Of a stretch of 64,000 bases of DNA, positions 55,440 to 63,963 are shown one piece after another. Where the stretch lies: assembly GCF_965363235.1 (NCBI RefSeq), contig NC_134845.1, forward strand, positions 29,390,524 through 29,454,523, read 5' to 3'. Under the pieces are notes generated by a model. The model did not search any database. It had not been told where the DNA came from and saw only the letters and a list, made by a program, of their open reading frames with translations. The position numbers and the translations under genes are program-made. Position 1 is the first letter of the stretch. The number at the start of each line of letters is the position of its first letter. Origin of the DNA: Mytilus galloprovincialis (Eukaryota > Mollusca > Bivalvia > Mytilida > Mytilidae).

Positions 55440-55713
55440 TGATCTGTTCTATAGAAAATTTCCACACCTGTAAGGTATTCATGATTGGACTTCCAATGGG
55501 GACTAACTGTGCACCACTTATTGCGGACCTGTTTTTGTATTGTTATTAGTTACAATTTATGACTAAAATTAGCAAAGACCCATCGAAACAACATTTGATA
55601 CAATAATTTAACAATACTTTTAGATATTTGGATGATATATTGGCTCTTAATAATGCCGACTTCAGTGTGTATACTAAAGAAATTTATCCTGTTTAAATAA
55701 AGCTAATACTAAC
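55440..55713 (+). pseudogene. Penelope-like RT, left part (host site of the Gypsy-like element)
   Basis: From 55481 it reads MIGLPMGTNCAPLIADLFLY, then a TAG stop at 55547. Further on comes FRYLDDILALNN with the catalytic YxDD and YTKEIYP. These are Penelope-like RT blocks in the correct order. The reading continues on the far side of the inserted element at 63964 (NNDHCPFLDLDIS), so the two parts were one sequence. Confidence 0.8.
55709..55713 (+). repeat. Target duplication, left copy (CTAAC)
   Basis: CTAAC directly before the left LTR, repeated at 63959-63963 directly after the right LTR. Five base pairs is a usual size for Ty3/Gypsy integrases. Confidence 0.85.
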
Positions 55714-56337
55714 TGTTGTGCCAAAGCTCATTAACTTAATTTACTTTCGTGATAGAAGTTATTACGTTGTTTAATGCAAATAGTTTGTGCAGTTCATTTT
55801 TATATTTCATAATTCCCGCAATATTTTGGTAATGATTTTACCGGGAGTTCGTATCACATTTTAGGTTGTCATTCGCGACTCAGATGTTATGCGGAGTAAT
55901 TTTCATAGGAACTGCATAACAAATCATTTATATATGTTTAAGTCGTATGGAATTACCTTTTACACATTCATTTATAACGATAATCTTTCATAATTGTAGT
56001 CTTTTGCTACACAGCGTTCATGTTTACATTGTAACCGTTAACCGGAAGTAGGGAATATCTATTTTTGTGTATTCACTTTGTAAACTAGGTCGACTATAGT
56101 CAGTTTCAAATTTGGATTGCCAACGATCAGCTGCTTTTAGAAACGAACTTCAGATATAACTTCACAGATTAGTTATTTTATAGGTAATTGAATACGTAGA
56201 GAATATTTAAATACTATTTATTGTAAATTGCAATACATTTCACATTTATTTCTGTTATAATAAACGGAATATATTTTACACCAGTTTTTCATTCATTGCT
56301 TTGAAATTGGTAAACTTAATAAACGGTCGGCGCTACA
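55714..56337 (+). repeat. Left LTR, forward orientation
   Basis: 624 bp, TGTTGTGCC...GGCGCTACA. AATAAA occurs at 56259-56264 and 56318-56323, near the 3' side as expected for R/U5. It is followed by AT and a TGG that starts the primer-binding site. The right copy is at 63335-63958 on the other strand. Confidence 0.9.
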
Positions 56338-56339
56338 AT

Positions 56340-56357
56340 TGGTGACAGCGGTGAACG
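56340..56357 (+). promoter_or_regulatory. Candidate tRNA primer-binding site
   Basis: TGGTGACAGCGGTGAACG begins two bases after the CA end of the left LTR. The TGG would pair with the CCA end of a tRNA. Which tRNA is not determined. Confidence 0.6.
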
Positions 56358-56560
56358 AATTTAATTTTTATTAAATTGCCACTGAAATTCTTTTGATTTA
56401 AAAATTATTAATACTCAAAGTGTAACTTGATACACAAAGAGTTTTAACAAAAAGGGGGAGAAAAATAAATAAAGATAATTTTTAAAAGTATAAATGAAGA
56501 AAAAACAAAACGTTAATTTGAGACTTCAAGTGTTATTTAAAAAAAATATATATATATTTT

Positions 56561-56765
56561 AGTGAACACTAAAGAGTGACTGACACTCAAAGGTGTAATA
56601 TTTAAGTATTTTTAGTGAGCACTAAAGAGTGACTGACACTCAAAGGTGTATTATTTAAGTATTATTTAGTGAACACTAAAGAGTGACTGACACTAAAAGG
56701 TGTATTATTTGAGTATAAATAAGTGAGCACTAAAGAGTGACTGACACTCAAAGGTGTATCCTTTT
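56561..56765 (+). repeat. Leader tandem repeat, about 54 bp x 4
   Basis: Units start at 56561, 56614, 56668 and 56722 with 'agtga(a/g)cactaaagagtg' followed by 'actgacact(c/a)aaaggtgta'. The last is partial. Decayed versions follow to about 56870. The array lies in the untranslated leader between the primer-binding site and gag. Confidence 0.85.
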
Positions 56766-57026
56766 TCAATTTAAAAAAAAACAACCTTAAAGGTAAACAC
56801 TAGAAAGATTTCTGATATCTTAAAGTGTAATAAACATTTTCATAATTAAGAGTAACTGATACTCAGCAGTAAAAAAAAAAAAAAAAAACACACAAAACAA
56901 CAACAAACAAACAAAACAAACAACAAACTTGGGCAAGATAAACAATCCTCTGTAGAGCACAGATTTATTAAAGCATTACACACAGTATATTATAAGATAT
57001 AAACCTTGCTTTTGCCCAAAGTCAGT

Positions 57027-58625
57027 ATGAATTTACGGAATAGAGGGCTACCATTGCCAATATTTTCAAGTATTGAGGGAAATTCTAGTATGACGCCAAG
57101 CTTACATACATCCTTAGTTCAAGCTGGTCCATCTTCATTAAATATGGGTAGTAGTAGTAATTCATTAGGCAGTGTTTCAATAAATAGTCAAAGTTCACAT
57201 ACATATACAACTAGTCCACCTATTCAAAGTACTTATAGTTTTCTGTATGATGCACAGAGCACACATGCCCCTGTTCAAAGTGCACCGAGCACTTACATGT
57301 CAAATTATAGTGCACTGAGCACAAATTTGTCTAATCAAAGTGTACAGAACACTTTTCCACAATCAAATAGTGCACTGAGCACAAGTTATCCATACCACTG
57401 CGTCCCAAGTGCAATGAACATTCCTCAAAGTGTACTGAACACTCAAAATAAAGCAAGTATTGATATGACTTATGACCAGGATGTTAATCCACCAAGAATG
57501 GTACCACGCAGCGACACACATATCTACCCACATAGTAACACCATGGATATTAATCAGATAGAAATGGTAAGACTGAGGGAGAAGATAACAGAAGTTGAAA
57601 GAGAAAGAGATTTCCTATGGCAAAACAGTCAAACAGATCAAGGAATGCCAAGTAGGGAAACAAGAGGCAGAACAGAGTCAATGTCGAGCACGCAGGATGG
57701 ATACCGATCAAGATTGCCCTTTTACAACGGCAAAGAAAATTGGAGCACATTTCTTATGCAATTTGAAATCATTGCAGACAGAAACAACTGGGATCCAAGG
57801 CGCCAGGCTGAAGAAATATTGCTAATCCTGAAAGATGAGGCTGCAAATTTTGCTGCAGAGCTGCCTTATGACACCAGAAGTTCATTTAGACTCCTGTCCA
57901 GAGAAATGGAAAGTCGTTTTGGTGACAATAATTTGCCAGAAACATACAGAAAGGAATTGCAGACAGTCAGAAAAGGTTACAAAGAATCAACCAATGAGTA
58001 TGCAGCACGTATACAGACAATGGTGAAAAAAGCATATCCAGGAATGAATCAACAATTGTTCAAAAGCATTGCCATAGAACATATGTTAAATGGGTTGCCA
58101 GATCAAAGCGTAGCATATGATGTTCTGACGAAAAGACCAAAAACAATGGAGGAGACTATCAACCTTGTCGCATGGCATACAACCTGTAAAAATGGTATAA
58201 AGGGGGAAAATCAAATAAGACAAATAGAAGTAGAAACAGAGGACAGAGATGTCAATTACAGTACAACTGAAGAGTTAGATGTACGACGAATTGGCGGAAA
58301 ACGTTTTGTGACTGAAGAGAGGCTGAATCAGTTTGGGAGGGACATTAAAGATATCATAACTACTGAGGTTACCAAGTCCGTTGAGAGTATTATGGATGCC
58401 AAGTTGAACACCCAACAAGCACCAAAGAATTTTAATTATAATAAACACAATCAGAGAAACTTTGATCCAAGATCAAAATGGCAGAATAAAGACCGTTTCC
58501 AGACACAGAAACAGAATAACAACAGATGTTATAATTGCCAAGAAGAAGGACATTTTGCGAGATACTGTCCAAAACCGAGGCAGAACCAAGGACAAAATCA
58601 AGACAAAGAGGATGATTTAAACTAA
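57027..58625 (+). CDS. gag: Gag polyprotein of the Gypsy-like element
   Basis: From ATG 57027 (the frame is open upstream to 57006 with no earlier ATG) to TAA 58623-58625, 532 residues. The N-terminal third is rich in Ser, Thr, Asn and Gln with repeated SALSTN- and SVxNT-like phrases. The capsid-like core reads LPFYNGKENWSTFLMQFEII and RFGDNNLPETYRKEL, as in Gypsy-type Gag. A CCHC zinc knuckle, CYNCQEEGHFARYC, lies near residue 500. Gag forms the particle and binds element RNA. It ends at a -1 frameshift signal leading into the protease frame. Confidence 0.88.
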   Translation: MNLRNRGLPLPIFSSIEGNSSMTPSLHTSLVQAGPSSLNMGSSSNSLGSVSINSQSSHTYTTSPPIQSTYSFLYDAQSTHAPVQSAPSTYMSNYSALSTNLSNQSVQNTFPQSNSALSTSYPYHCVPSAMNIPQSVLNTQNKASIDMTYDQDVNPPRMVPRSDTHIYPHSNTMDINQIEMVRLREKITEVERERDFLWQNSQTDQGMPSRETRGRTESMSSTQDGYRSRLPFYNGKENWSTFLMQFEIIADRNNWDPRRQAEEILLILKDEAANFAAELPYDTRSSFRLLSREMESRFGDNNLPETYRKELQTVRKGYKESTNEYAARIQTMVKKAYPGMNQQLFKSIAIEHMLNGLPDQSVAYDVLTKRPKTMEETINLVAWHTTCKNGIKGENQIRQIEVETEDRDVNYSTTEELDVRRIGGKRFVTEERLNQFGRDIKDIITTEVTKSVESIMDAKLNTQQAPKNFNYNKHNQRNFDPRSKWQNKDRFQTQKQNNNRCYNCQEEGHFARYCPKPRQNQGQNQDKEDDLN

Positions 58626-58658
58626 AGAGGGCTGAAACTGACGGCCAAGTGTCAGCCC
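58616..58658 (+). promoter_or_regulatory. -1 ribosomal frameshift signal at the end of gag
   Basis: Slippery heptamer TTTAAAC at 58616-58622, phased T-TTA-AAC in the gag frame, is followed by the gag stop at 58623. A six-base spacer leads to a perfect seven-pair stem, GGGCTGA (58629-58635) with TCAGCCC (58652-58658). Slipping back one base enters exactly the frame of the protease ORF. The fit to the classic rule is very good; frameshifting itself is inferred. Confidence 0.8.
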
Positions 58659-59869
58659 ACAATAGTAAAAGTAAGACAGAAGTAGTAAAGATAAACCAGA
58701 CAAGTGATGATCCAATAGAAAGGATACTGCAATGTTTGTTGCTTAGAGAGAAGAAGGAGGAAATGTTGAAATTTGCTAGTGGTAATCAAGAGCAAGATTT
58801 TGTTGCTGAGTCTGTGCAAAAGGACCAAGGTCTTTCTTCACATGATGAAAATGGTCAGAATACAGGTGCTGATGAAGATGTGATATTGAACACTAAAGAG
58901 GAAATTGTGATTGATCGCATAACAGCAGCCAGTATAAAGGTACCAATGGAGGTCAGCAATCAGAAAATCAAGGCTGTAATTGATACTGGGGCAGAAGTTA
59001 CTGTGTTAAATGAAGATATATTTTTCCGCCTTCCAAAAACAAACAGATCAAAGTTAAAACCAGCACTGAAAAACCTAGTTGTTGCCGAAGCAGGGAAGCA
59101 AATGGGAACCAAAGGGGTAGCAGCAGTGACGTTAACACTTGGAGACTCACAGTTTGTCTGGGATGTATATGTAGCACCTATAGGTGATGATTTATTGTTA
59201 GGCTGCGATGTCCTTGATGAAATGGATATTACAGTTAACTCTAGAAAAGGAATCCAGTTGAATGGAAAATGGATAGAATGTGAAGTAAAACGCAAGTCGG
59301 ACTTAATTGCGAGAGTAGTCTTGTATTCGAATTTCACCATTCCACCATCTTCAGAAGTTATTTTTTATGGTTGCGGTCAAAATCAAGAGTTGTTAGATAC
59401 CAGGTATTCCATGATACAGCCTGTTATAGAAGACAGCAGGAAATTTATGGTGGCACAGACTTTAGTTGACCCCTTCATGAAAAATATTCCAGTTAGACTG
59501 ATAAATTTAGATTCAGAACCAATACGTTTGAAGAAAAACTATCTTCTTGGTGAACTTCATCCTGTTGATTACATAGAAAACATGTTTGAACTTGAGAATG
59601 ACAGAGTCGAAACTTTGACAAGCAAACAGTCCAAGATGTGTAAAACACATGAGTTATCCAAAGAAAACTTCACATTGTCTGAGACCATAGAAAAGGCAAA
59701 TATACCAGAAAAGTGGGAATCAGAGATAAAGATTTGTAAAATCAATGAGCTGAATGGTAAACAGAAGAAAAAGGCCGAAAATCAACTGTTGCCAGAACAC
59801 CTCAAAGAACAGTATGGCTTTTGCCTCTTCAAAAACAGATTTGGGAACATGTTCCCTAGTCAAACATAG
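58622..59869 (+). CDS. Protease region of the Gypsy-like pol
   Basis: Open in frame -1 relative to gag, entered through the slippery site; the first possible in-frame codon after the gag stop is not ATG, which supports frameshift expression. The retropepsin motif IDTGAEVTVLN has its catalytic Asp codon at 58982, and LLLGCDVLDEMDI corresponds to the second conserved block. It is an aspartic protease that would cleave the Gag-Pol polyprotein. The tail (LPEHLKEQYG) runs into the region normally joining protease and RT, but the frame then ends at 59869. The RT lies in another frame. Confidence 0.8.
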   Translation, partial: LKRAETDGQVSAHNSKSKTEVVKINQTSDDPIERILQCLLLREKKEEMLKFASGNQEQDFVAESVQKDQGLSSHDENGQNTGADEDVILNTKEEIVIDRITAASIKVPMEVSNQKIKAVIDTGAEVTVLNEDIFFRLPKTNRSKLKPALKNLVVAEAGKQMGTKGVAAVTLTLGDSQFVWDVYVAPIGDDLLLGCDVLDEMDITVNSRKGIQLNGKWIECEVKRKSDLIARVVLYSNFTIPPSSEVIFYGCGQNQELLDTRYSMIQPVIEDSRKFMVAQTLVDPFMKNIPVRLINLDSEPIRLKKNYLLGELHPVDYIENMFELENDRVETLTSKQSKMCKTHELSKENFTLSETIEKANIPEKWESEIKICKINELNGKQKKKAENQLLPEHLKEQYGFCLFKNRFGNMFPSQT

Positions 59870-62636
59870 AATTGATACAGCTGGGGCTGCTCCTATTAGA
59901 CAACCACTAAGAAGAACACCAGCAGCATTTGATAATGAAGATAAGAAGAACCTAGATGAACAATTGGAACAGGGAATAATCCAGCCATCTAAATCAGCAT
60001 GGGCTTCCAATGTCGTACTTGTTCGGAAGAAAGACAACACTGTTAGGTGGTGCTTAGATTTCAGGAAACTGAATGATTTGACCATTAAGGATGCCTATCC
60101 GTTGCCTAGGATAGATATGTGTCTGGATTGTCTGGCCTCTGCATCTCTATTTAGTTGCCTTGATCTTCAGAGTGGTTATTGGCAGTTACAGTTAGAAGAA
60201 AAAGATCAGCCAAAAACAGCGTTCATCACAAAATATGGATTGTACGAATACTGTAAAATGCCATTTGGTTTGTGTAACGCACCAAGCACGTTCCAGAGAT
60301 GTATGGAGCTTATCTTCAGAGGATTACAGTGGAAGACCCTTCTAATATATCTTGACGATATTATCATCTTCAGTTCAGACTATGAAGAGCATTTGTCCAG
60401 ACTAGACGAGGTATTTCAACGACTCATCAAGGCTGGTTTGAAACTAAAACCATCCAAATGTAACCTGATGAAGAGCGAGACACTGTATATTGGACATATT
60501 GTAGGAAAAGATGGCATAAAACCAAACCCTAAGCTTATCTCGAGTGTAAAAAACTGGAAGGTACCAACATCAATGAAAGAAGTACAGAAGTTCCTGGGCC
60601 TTTGCAACTATTACAGGCAATTTATTAAAGGTTTCAGTGAGATAGCTGCTCCATTAAGTCATTTGACTAGAAAAGATGTCACTTTTGAATGGACAGAAAC
60701 TGCTCAGAATAGTTATGATAATTTGAAAACAGCCCTTTGTACCAGTCCAGTATTAGCATATCCACATCCAGATGGAAAATTTGTCCTTGACACAGATGCC
60801 TCCAACATTGGTATTGGTGCAGTGCTTCACCAAGTACAAGATGGGAAGGAAAAAGAGATTGCATATGTCTCAAAGAAATTAGATAAGACTCAACAAAGAT
60901 ACAGCGTCACAAGAAGAGAACTGTTAGCCATGGTAACATTTGTCAACCAATTCAGACACTATTTACTTGGCAGAAAGTTTATCGTCAGAACGGACCATGG
61001 GTCTCTGAAATGGTTATTTGGATTCAAAGATCCACAAGGGCAACTAGCCAGATGGATTGAAACCCTTTCACAGTATGATTTTGAGATACAACACCGTCCA
61101 GGCTTAAAACACCAAAATGCTGATGCATTGTCCAGACAAAAACATGATGTTCCAGTATGTAATCATTCTACAAACAGTTCTGAAGACACCTGTAAAGCCT
61201 GTGAACAGATAAATGAGCAATGGAAAAGTTTCAAGACTGAAGTAGATGATGTAAAGGAACTGAATTATAAAGTCACAGTAAGAGCTGTGGTAACAAGGTC
61301 TCAAGAACAGCCAGATTGGTTGGCCAAATATTCAGTTAAAGAAATGCAGGCGTTCCAAAAAGAAGACCAAGATCTAAAATACTTACACCAATGGAAAAAA
61401 GAAGGAAAAATACCAGAAAGAGAATTGTGTGCTAGTTTAAGCTCAGCCACAAGGAGATATTGGTTAAACTGGGAAAATATTGAATTGATAGATGGTATTG
61501 TTTATCAGAAATGGATAAATGCTAAGAGTAAATTAAATCATTTACAGTTGATTGTTCCACAAATATTAAAGAGGGATATATTGATCTTGAGCCATAACAC
61601 CCCTTATTCTGGACACATGGGAGTTAAGAAAACCATAGAGAAAATGAAGACAGTTTTTACCTGGTACAAGATGAGTCAGGATATAACAGAACATATACAG
61701 AATTGTACCATATGCAACAAAATAAAAGGAACAGGGAAAAAACCAAAAGCACCTTTGATGGACTATAGAGTGGGATACCCATTAGACAGAATTGGTATAG
61801 ACATCATTGGTCCACTGACATTAACCAGAAAGAAGAATAAATTTATACTGGTTATAGGCGATTATTTTACCAGATGGATGGAAGCCTACCCTATATCACA
61901 TCAGCATGCTGACCTGGTGGCACAGAAACTAGTGATGAAATTTATTGCTAGGTTTGGCATACCCCTAGAACTTCATACAGACCAAGGAAAGAACTTCGAG
62001 AGTGACCTATTCAAATCTGTTTGTAATTTATTTCAAATTAACAAAACCAGAACAACTGCATATCATCCGTCATCAAATGGTTTAATAGAAAGGTTTAACA
62101 AGACTCTTGGTGGTATGATCAAGACCTTTGTCAACAAGAACGTAACAAATTGGGATGAATACATTAATTTCCTGCTAGCTGCTTACAGAAGTACCCCTCA
62201 TCCGGCTACAGGGTTTTCACCAAACTACATGATGTTAGGTAGAGAGGTCAATATCCCTCTGAACCTGATGTTCAGAAGTCATGACAACAGAACACAGAAC
62301 AACGAAGATTACATTTCAACAATAAAATCTCATTTTCAAAACGTCTATGAGATTGCGAGAGAAAATCTAAAGACCAATGCAGAAAGACAAAAACGTGACC
62401 ATGACACACGATTGACTGACAATAGATATGAGTTAGGGGCCTTGGTATATAAATTTGACAAAACCGTAAATAAAAAGTTTCGCTCTCCATGGCTTGGTCC
62501 TTTTGTAATAACGAAAATTCTCAGCCCCGTTGTTTATGAGATTCGCGGTGAATTCCGCACTGAGGTAGTTCACCATGATCGATTAAAACCCTGTAATGAA
62601 AACATGCCAATTTGGGCAAAAGCAAGTTACCAGTAG
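59754..62636 (+). CDS. pol: RT, RNase H and integrase of the Gypsy-like pol
   Basis: Open over 960 codons. The first 35 or so residues overlap the protease frame; homology starts near TDLGTCSLVKHRIDTAG. RT blocks: WCLDFRKLNDLTIKDAYPLP, MPFGLCNAPSTFQR and YLDDIIIFS (codons 60348-60359). RNase H: FVLDTDASNIGIGAVLHQ, RRELLAM and NADALSR. Integrase: zinc-binding SHNTPYSGHMGVKKT...CTICNK, and the DDE triad in IGIDIIGPL, LHTDQGKNF and SNGLIERFN. A GPF-type end follows (WLGPFVITKI). No stops within. Moving from the protease frame needs +1, and the linker is shorter than usual, so a deletion of 3n+2 bases is likely. Confidence 0.9.
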   Translation: MVNRRKRPKINCCQNTSKNSMAFASSKTDLGTCSLVKHRIDTAGAAPIRQPLRRTPAAFDNEDKKNLDEQLEQGIIQPSKSAWASNVVLVRKKDNTVRWCLDFRKLNDLTIKDAYPLPRIDMCLDCLASASLFSCLDLQSGYWQLQLEEKDQPKTAFITKYGLYEYCKMPFGLCNAPSTFQRCMELIFRGLQWKTLLIYLDDIIIFSSDYEEHLSRLDEVFQRLIKAGLKLKPSKCNLMKSETLYIGHIVGKDGIKPNPKLISSVKNWKVPTSMKEVQKFLGLCNYYRQFIKGFSEIAAPLSHLTRKDVTFEWTETAQNSYDNLKTALCTSPVLAYPHPDGKFVLDTDASNIGIGAVLHQVQDGKEKEIAYVSKKLDKTQQRYSVTRRELLAMVTFVNQFRHYLLGRKFIVRTDHGSLKWLFGFKDPQGQLARWIETLSQYDFEIQHRPGLKHQNADALSRQKHDVPVCNHSTNSSEDTCKACEQINEQWKSFKTEVDDVKELNYKVTVRAVVTRSQEQPDWLAKYSVKEMQAFQKEDQDLKYLHQWKKEGKIPERELCASLSSATRRYWLNWENIELIDGIVYQKWINAKSKLNHLQLIVPQILKRDILILSHNTPYSGHMGVKKTIEKMKTVFTWYKMSQDITEHIQNCTICNKIKGTGKKPKAPLMDYRVGYPLDRIGIDIIGPLTLTRKKNKFILVIGDYFTRWMEAYPISHQHADLVAQKLVMKFIARFGIPLELHTDQGKNFESDLFKSVCNLFQINKTRTTAYHPSSNGLIERFNKTLGGMIKTFVNKNVTNWDEYINFLLAAYRSTPHPATGFSPNYMMLGREVNIPLNLMFRSHDNRTQNNEDYISTIKSHFQNVYEIARENLKTNAERQKRDHDTRLTDNRYELGALVYKFDKTVNKKFRSPWLGPFVITKILSPVVYEIRGEFRTEVVHHDRLKPCNENMPIWAKASYQ

Positions 62637-62700
62637 AATATTTGATATGTGTAAATTTTAAAACAAATTTTTAGTTTTTTGATAATTTTTTATTTATAGA

Positions 62701-63339
62701 ATGTCAGACGTCATAGGAACCAAAGTATGGCAATGCAGGCTTTGTGATTTTAAACATTTAAACAAGAAAGGAGCTGTGCAACATTTTATGTTTAGGCATA
62801 CTCCAAATAACCAAATACCATTTTTATGTAATATCTGCAACTTTAAGGCACTAACTGAGGGAAAATGGAAAAACCATGCTAATGCCATGGCAGGAAAGCC
62901 TCTCAGAGAGGATTCTGCTGTACATACTTTTCATAAGTCCACCAACCCATACAATGTAAAGATTGGAAGTGACATTTTTATTAAAACAACACTAATTACA
63001 CCTTCAACACAAAAATCAGAAATTAAAGAGGAAGAATTCATCCCGGATTATGATGAGGAAATCACCATCAGTGAGGAAGAAGTTGCCATTATGGAAGTAG
63101 AGGTAGATGAAAGAGATGAACAAATTGAGGGACTTAAAAACAAAATAAAAGAAATGGAGGAAAAACACAGGGAAGATAACAGAAGTATGGAAGAAACCCA
63201 CAAGAAGCAAATTAAAGAATTGGAGGAAAAACACAAATTTGAATGTCTAAGATTCGGAAATTTTATTCAAAGACTGGAAAAGAAAAAAGAAGACCTAAAG
63301 AAAGAGCTGAAGTCAGCGGAAAAGATGGTCCAATTGTAG
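62701..63339 (+). CDS. Extra ORF with C2H2-like zinc fingers and coiled coil
   Basis: ATG 62701 to TAG 63337-63339, 212 residues, 64 bp after pol. Residues about 10-31 give CRLCDFKHL...VQHFMFRH and about 43-60 CNICNFKAL...KNHANAM, two C2H2-type finger candidates. Residues about 115-205 are Glu/Lys-rich heptads (IEGLKNKIKEMEEKH, LEKKKEDLKKELKSAEK), a coiled coil. There is no signal peptide or membrane segment, so it is not an envelope protein. The stop codon is made by the first bases of the inverted right LTR. Function unknown: it could be an accessory nucleic-acid binder of the element or a captured host exon. Confidence 0.7.
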   Translation: MSDVIGTKVWQCRLCDFKHLNKKGAVQHFMFRHTPNNQIPFLCNICNFKALTEGKWKNHANAMAGKPLREDSAVHTFHKSTNPYNVKIGSDIFIKTTLITPSTQKSEIKEEEFIPDYDEEITISEEEVAIMEVEVDERDEQIEGLKNKIKEMEEKHREDNRSMEETHKKQIKELEEKHKFECLRFGNFIQRLEKKKEDLKKELKSAEKMVQL

Positions 63340-63958
63340 CGCCGACCGTTTATTAAGTTTACCAATTTCAAAGCAATGAATGAAAAACTGGTGTAAAATA
63401 TATTCCGTTTATCATAACAGAAATAAATGTGAAATGTATTGCAATTTACAATAAATAGTATTTAAATATTCTCTACGTATTCAATTACCTATAAAATAAC
63501 TAATCTGTGAAGTTATATCTGAAGTTCGTTTCTAAAAGCAGCTGATCGTTGGCAATCCAAATTTGAAACTGACTATAGTCGACCTAGTTTACAAAGTGAA
63601 TACACAAAAATAGATATTCCCTACTTCCGGTTAACGGTTACAATGTAAACATGAACGCTGTGTAGCAAAAGACTACAATTATGAAAGATTATCGTTATAA
63701 ATGAATGTGTAAAAGGTAATTCCATACAACTTAAACATATATAAATGATTTGTTATGCAGTTCCTATGAAAATTACTCCGCATAACATCTGAGTCGCGAA
63801 TGACAACCTAAAATGTGCTACGAACTCCCGGTAAAATCATTACCAAAATATTGCGGGAATTATGAAATATAAAAATGAACTGCACAAACTATTTGCATTA
63901 AACAACGTAATAACTTCTATCACGAAAGTAAATTAAGTTAATGAGCTTTGGCACAACA
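63335..63958 (-). repeat. Right LTR, inverted orientation
   Basis: 624 bp, the reverse complement of 55714-56337 with about three differences. Just inside it, CCAAT is the complement of the ATTGG that follows the left LTR, so the inverted similarity runs five bases past the LTR into the TGG of the primer-binding site before ending. Confidence 0.92.
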
Positions 63959-63963
63959 CTAAC
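63959..63963 (+). repeat. Target duplication, right copy (CTAAC)
   Basis: Matches 55709-55713. Confidence 0.85.

Follow-up and report, generated by a model that had tools for sequence, protein, structure and literature searches.

Inverted LTRs in a Ty3/Gypsy retrotransposon of Mytilus galloprovincialis: probably an aberrant reverse-transcription product of an ordinary direct-LTR family

How does a retrotransposon with the gene content of Ty3/Gypsy come to be enclosed by LTRs that face each other? The question is raised by an element in a 64,000-nucleotide stretch of the Mytilus galloprovincialis genome, C8:29390524-29454523, which was analysed as a whole and is hereafter called the window. 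An earlier note, made from the sequence of this stretch, had offered two alternatives, i.e., an unusual product of reverse transcription, accepted by the integrase nonetheless, or a lineage that replicates with inverted ends. Having searched the genome (1.38 Gb in 331 contigs), we find that the former is supported and the latter is not: the window copy belongs to an ordinary Ty3/Gypsy family with direct LTRs, of which it is a rearranged product. Its features, numbered from the first base of the window, are these:

55709..55713, no strand: left target-site duplication CTAAC (from the sequence; a single CTAAC in 6/6 aligned empty-site paralogues)
55714..56337, + strand: left LTR, direct, TGTTG...CTACA (sequence comparison)
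56338..56351, + strand: AT spacer and start of the primer-binding site, ATTGGTGACAGCGG (comparison with eight other copies)
56546..56770, + strand: four tandem repeats of ~54 bp in the leader (self-comparison of the window)
57003..58625, + strand: gag frame, stop to stop, with a zinc knuckle and a Retrotrans_gag match just under the cut-off (ORF list, Pfam)
58616..59869, + strand: protease frame (gag-asp_proteas, RVP), stop to stop (ORF list, Pfam)
59754..62636, + strand: RT, RNase H and integrase (H2C2, rve) frame (Pfam; Ty3 Gag-Pol relative)
62701..63339, + strand: extra small frame of 212 aa with two CxxC near its start (ORF list)
63326..63329, + strand: TGGT, not found at the corresponding place in the ten other copies printed
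63330..63334, - strand: CCAAT, complementary to the ATTGG after the left LTR (sequence comparison)
63335..63958, - strand: right LTR, inverted, U3 end outermost (sequence comparison)
63959..63963, no strand: right target-site duplication CTAAC (sequence; empty-site alignments)

The 624-bp LTR at the left recurs in full as an inverted copy at the right, as the earlier note had read it, and the approximately three differences counted there are exactly three (sites 141, 231, and 546 of the LTR). The ungapped inverted match is somewhat longer, 629 nt (55714-56342 versus 63330-63958), the two arms having five further inner bases, ATTGG, in common. These two arms are the only ones found in the element, and no internal third LTR is present. 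CTAAC adjoins both outer ends, each of which is a U3 end. When the window flanks are joined with a single CTAAC, no gap is needed at the site to align them to all six copies of the host repeat that were compared (fetched loci among 40 matches listed, 40 of 2437 host-repeat candidates having been scored), and a 10-base gap ~20 bases upstream is a separate change in the window's copy of this repeat. Given the duplication and an empty site with one CTAAC, one unit was therefore inserted with U3 at both outer ends, and the single insertion claimed in the earlier note is confirmed as a single integration event with a 5-bp duplication. The window copy thus has the integrase-type target duplication and the TG...CA ends, although both of its outer ends are U3. 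The host RT-like repeat itself also occurs as a tandem array with a period of 2041 bp at C1:131860083-131868615 (five matches, among the matches listed).

Between the arms, the zinc knuckle, aspartyl protease, RT, RNase H, integrase zinc-binding, and rve domains all pass their Pfam cut-offs in the window frames, in agreement with the protease, RT, RNase H, and DDE integrase recognised earlier; as to gag, the zinc knuckle stands, and the gag domain itself (Retrotrans_gag) falls just short, at 23.4 bits against a cut-off of 24.1. Protease, RT, RNase H, and DDE integrase follow one another in the Ty3/Gypsy order, the best solved relative of the pol frame is Ty3 Gag-Pol (E 3.3e-120), and no tyrosine recombinase was matched by Pfam in four frames at E 0.001. 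The element is a Ty3/Gypsy with a DDE integrase. The extra small frame, which has no Pfam match, crosses the inversion junction and finds its stop codon inside the inverted LTR; its DNA is also found in sister copies, and in six of these the tail of the frame continues for ~26 residues (four copies), stops immediately (one) or runs out of frame (one). Several sister copies give multiple overlapping matches at the leader tandem repeats as well, and ~74 bp of several other copies, judging from match coordinates, are absent from the window at 59805-59808, where a 4-base repeat lies close to the protease/pol boundary.

A genome-wide classification of the LTRs by orientation, together with a check of 5-bp duplications, had been called for in the earlier note. 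A search with the LTR yielded 44 listed matches (40 of 52 candidates scored) and a search with the inverted junction yielded 41 (40 of 65 candidates scored); among the latter, no match but the window's own crosses the junction. The internal part of the junction query is matched at 13 other places among those listed, every one ending at query base 391, i.e., window position 63325 (a further short row, query 10-93, belongs to one of these 13). With L018, 14 other places among the matches listed carry the same 3' internal region, and at 14/14 the next LTR is direct. These represent at least 11 separate insertions, because the flanking DNA is common to two of the places, at C1:2.3 Mb, where it follows the LTR, and to three others, on C11, which align well past the matched part of the LTR. 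Exact 5-bp duplications bound five of the six printed two-LTR elements (L013, L015, L016, L017, and L030; L032 was left out of this count), and at the sixth, L018, four of the five bases match. The exact structure of the window element was seen in no other copy among the matches listed. Two trios of places, on C11 and at C2:58.53-58.61 Mb, likewise have flanks in common. At C1:2325806-2335400 (L014 and L006), a 5'-truncated copy and its 3' flank stand in tandem at an interval of 6997 bp and are 97.8% alike. This arrangement is a segmental duplication, in tandem, of one truncated copy plus flank and not a multi-LTR template-switch complex; it also follows that the two LTRs at this locus (10 mismatches) are not the pair of one element.

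The window copy departs from its sisters at the 3' end, a loss that the earlier note had not described, as it had not the TGGT and CCAAT at the junction. Ten copies printed have 345-350 bp from the point where the window body ends to the LTR (the count for L015 takes in two LTR bases), ending in ACGGGAGGCAG, and in L032, L036, L037, and L038 the corresponding gap is ~330-340 bp by match coordinates. The window copy is without this 3' internal stretch and its polypurine tract, and GACGGGAGGCAG is absent throughout the window on both strands. Instead, the body ends ...GCGGAAAAGA at 63325 and is followed by TGGT, CCAAT, and the inverted LTR. The gene content, the 5-bp target-site duplication, and the TG...CA LTRs are those of Ty3/Gypsy, whereas the direct LTRs and the polypurine tract before the 3' LTR are found in the sister copies and not in the window copy. 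The nature of CCAAT becomes clear from the other end of the element. The same 14 bases that follow the left LTR in the window, ATTGGTGACAGCGG, do so in four of the eight other copies printed (L015, L016, L017, and L019), with variants in L031 (ATTGGTGGCAGCGG), L013 (AATTGGTGGCAGCGG), and L018 (AATTCGTGGCAGCGG) and host flank at this place in L014. As sister copies have this sequence or its variants after the LTR, CCAAT is the complement of the 2-base spacer plus the first three bases of the primer-binding site. We take the primer of the family to be tRNA-Leu, and these three bases presumably copy the CCA end of the tRNA. A mis-primed tRNA start at 63325 was also considered and is not supported, because only 6/18 bases at the body stop are like the primer-binding site.

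All three differences between the arms are private to one of them. The left-arm T141 and C231 occur in none of 38 and 38 other LTR alignments and the right-arm G546 in none of 35 (the 50 alignments used being pieces rather than copies, as one copy may contribute two LTRs or several fragments, and certain places are duplicates of each other). No site private to both arms was found against these alignments, and two rare variants, C16 and T226, are common to both arms, each being present in one other copy. It follows that the arms were identical at birth and, by parsimony, the simplest reading is that they are identical copies of one template that have accumulated three changes since. Their divergence (3/624) is below that of the five direct pairs measured, which differ at 7, 17, 17, 13, and 42 of 624-634 positions, the L014 row being omitted from this comparison.

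A second copy of the family also carries an LTR folded back on itself. At C1:119801852-119811811 (L019/L020) the left side is normal except for a later insert in the left LTR, and the 3' side consists of a direct LTR to ~576, an inverted LTR from 552 to 1, the complement of the polypurine tract, and then a normal U5 end, the switch back to which passes through a 6-base overlap, AATAAA. The entire structure is flanked by ATTCT, a 5-bp target-site duplication. Its three LTR copies show 13 substitutions over 501 columns, all singletons (5 in the left, 3 in the direct right, and 5 in the inverted copy); a fold-back of much later date should have left shared changes in the two right copies, and as there are none, it is by this pattern of substitutions as old as the insertion. 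With normal outer ends, this copy attests to head-to-head LTR synthesis and not to the integration of two U3 ends. Counting the window as well, abnormal 3' ends amount to 2 among the 15 places listed whose 3' end can be read. The insert in its left LTR (L019:955-1670) is ~710 bp long, has inverted ends GGTAGCACAATACAAAG with TTAA on each side, and we take it to be piggyBac-like. Another inverted piece, at C2:85432155-85432935 (L021:8156-8936), runs from LTR base 1 to ~600, then continues with the exact U5 end in inverse orientation, cut at LTR base 475; this arrangement holds a short palindromic insert, and no closing duplication was seen. As the joined end is here the outer LTR end, a second insertion or autointegration appears to fit the C2 piece better.

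Taken together, we consider it very probable that the window element is one aberrant reverse-transcription product of its ordinary direct-LTR family. The observations that favor the first alternative of the earlier note are the single integration, the U3 sequence at both ends, the original identity of the arms, a junction that includes the start of the primer-binding site, and the second fold-back on C1, which is as old as its insertion. Retroviral plus-strand strong-stop DNA begins at the polypurine tract and copies U3-R-U5 plus part of the primer tRNA (PMC11241228). We postulate that a truncated cDNA body stopping at 63325 was joined head to head with the inner 3' end of such a strong-stop DNA, U3-R-U5-AT-TGG. 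A strong-stop DNA with U3 at one end and the spacer and primer-binding-site start at the other would, on joining, yield both the observed order and the exact U3 edge. The join could more likely have come about by a template jump of the reverse transcriptase onto the strong-stop end, with a few extra bases added, and less likely by end-joining; copying of the strong-stop DNA to its 5' end would then leave an inverted LTR terminating exactly at U3, and the integrase of the element would have used two identical U3 ends in place of one U3 and one U5. Having neither a polypurine tract nor a direct 3' R, the product should be unable to replicate further by the canonical route. It looks like an isolated copying error and not like a new type of element.

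Several other histories could leave inverted LTRs behind. Among them, a change after integration is the least improbable, though still unlikely: a normal direct-LTR insertion would have lost its 3' part and 3' LTR, these being replaced by an inverted 5' LTR via replication template switching. Both LTR termini end in ACA, so that a switch-back at the exact edge through 3 bp of microhomology is possible in principle, and fold-back switching at DNA breaks has been described (PMC11724301). Such a switch must nevertheless hit the exact edge of the element, which only 1 of 12539 microhomology switch-back pairs achieves (a plain tally of the 3-base matches in the LTR and 200 bases of flank, which is no estimate of probability). 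The arms, moreover, have no private mutation in common, which is what arms formed at integration should show, though a switch soon after integration would look alike. An assembly artefact, in which a truly direct right LTR was misjoined, seems to us very improbable, as the arm differences, the target-site duplication, the primer-binding-site bases, and the clean empty site would all have to be products of chance, and a unit of 8.2 kb is within the reach of single long reads. Autointegration is known to befall retroelement cDNA (PMC2644782), yet it, or a nested second insertion in inverse orientation, joins the outer LTR end to an inner site, whereas in the window copy the end that is joined is the inner one, with the primer-binding site, and the outer end lies at the target-site duplication. 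Autointegration is rejected on this ground; a separate insertion would moreover bring its own duplication, and no 5-bp duplication of internal sequence was seen at 63325-63334. We give these two routes almost no credence.

The same holds for a Gypsy lineage that replicates with inverted LTRs and behaves like DIRS elements, for which the inverted ends themselves speak. The family census rules it out: sister LTRs are direct throughout the places listed, the inverted junction recurs in no other listed match, and the window copy is without the polypurine tract and a direct 3' R. Its integrase is moreover of the rve type, with no tyrosine recombinase match. We know of no YR elements with target duplications. 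DIRS-1 also has inverted LTRs, and sense and antisense transcripts of it are reported, but it is characterized by a tyrosine recombinase, an internal complementary region, and a circular intermediate (PMC5633606), whereas insertion through a circle without target duplication is at odds with the CTAAC duplication and empty sites of the window. A DIRS-like element is ruled out by the domains and the target-site duplication. Closer to the reverse-transcription accident that we favor are template-switching complex LTR retrotransposons, in which two internal regions have a third LTR in common (Sabot & Schulman 2007, PMC1950507). Like these, the window element is an aberrant reverse-transcription product that entered by one integrase insertion with a 5-bp target-site duplication, its matching outer LTRs stemming from one round of reverse transcription; unlike them, it has an inverted LTR, which is not described there, and a lost 3' internal end, and it has no third LTR between two complete internal regions. 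HIV-1 proviruses with asymmetric LTRs are similar in that plus-strand strong-stop DNA moved to an abnormal partner before integration, the difference being that the part of the source consulted speaks of deletions in the LTRs and mentions no inverted LTR (PMC9278108). A locust paper words Gypsy-25, in a passage of its text, as having an inverted LTR pair (PMC8786324). Among the titles and abstract openings of the open-licence literature, in which few subscription papers are covered, we recognised no published DDE-integrase LTR element inserted with inverted LTRs.

The window element is thus likely an informative accident of an ordinary family, as in the first alternative of the earlier note. 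It appears to document, in nature, that the integrase of a Gypsy element is able to insert a cDNA whose two ends are identical, both being U3, and that the 5-bp duplication which it makes is nevertheless a proper one. The locus would preserve an abnormal plus-strand intermediate at base resolution. Copies of this sort would be overlooked by an annotation that looks for direct LTRs only, and their frequency could be counted. Going further, it may be, though we hold this as a tentative idea and rather doubt it, that the reverse transcriptase of the family makes head-to-head LTR cDNAs repeatedly, that its integrase accepts two U3 ends, and that the locus makes antisense and LTR-hairpin RNA able to feed small-RNA silencing of the family. 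With LTR promoters that would be convergent, the locus is a candidate source of double-stranded RNA.
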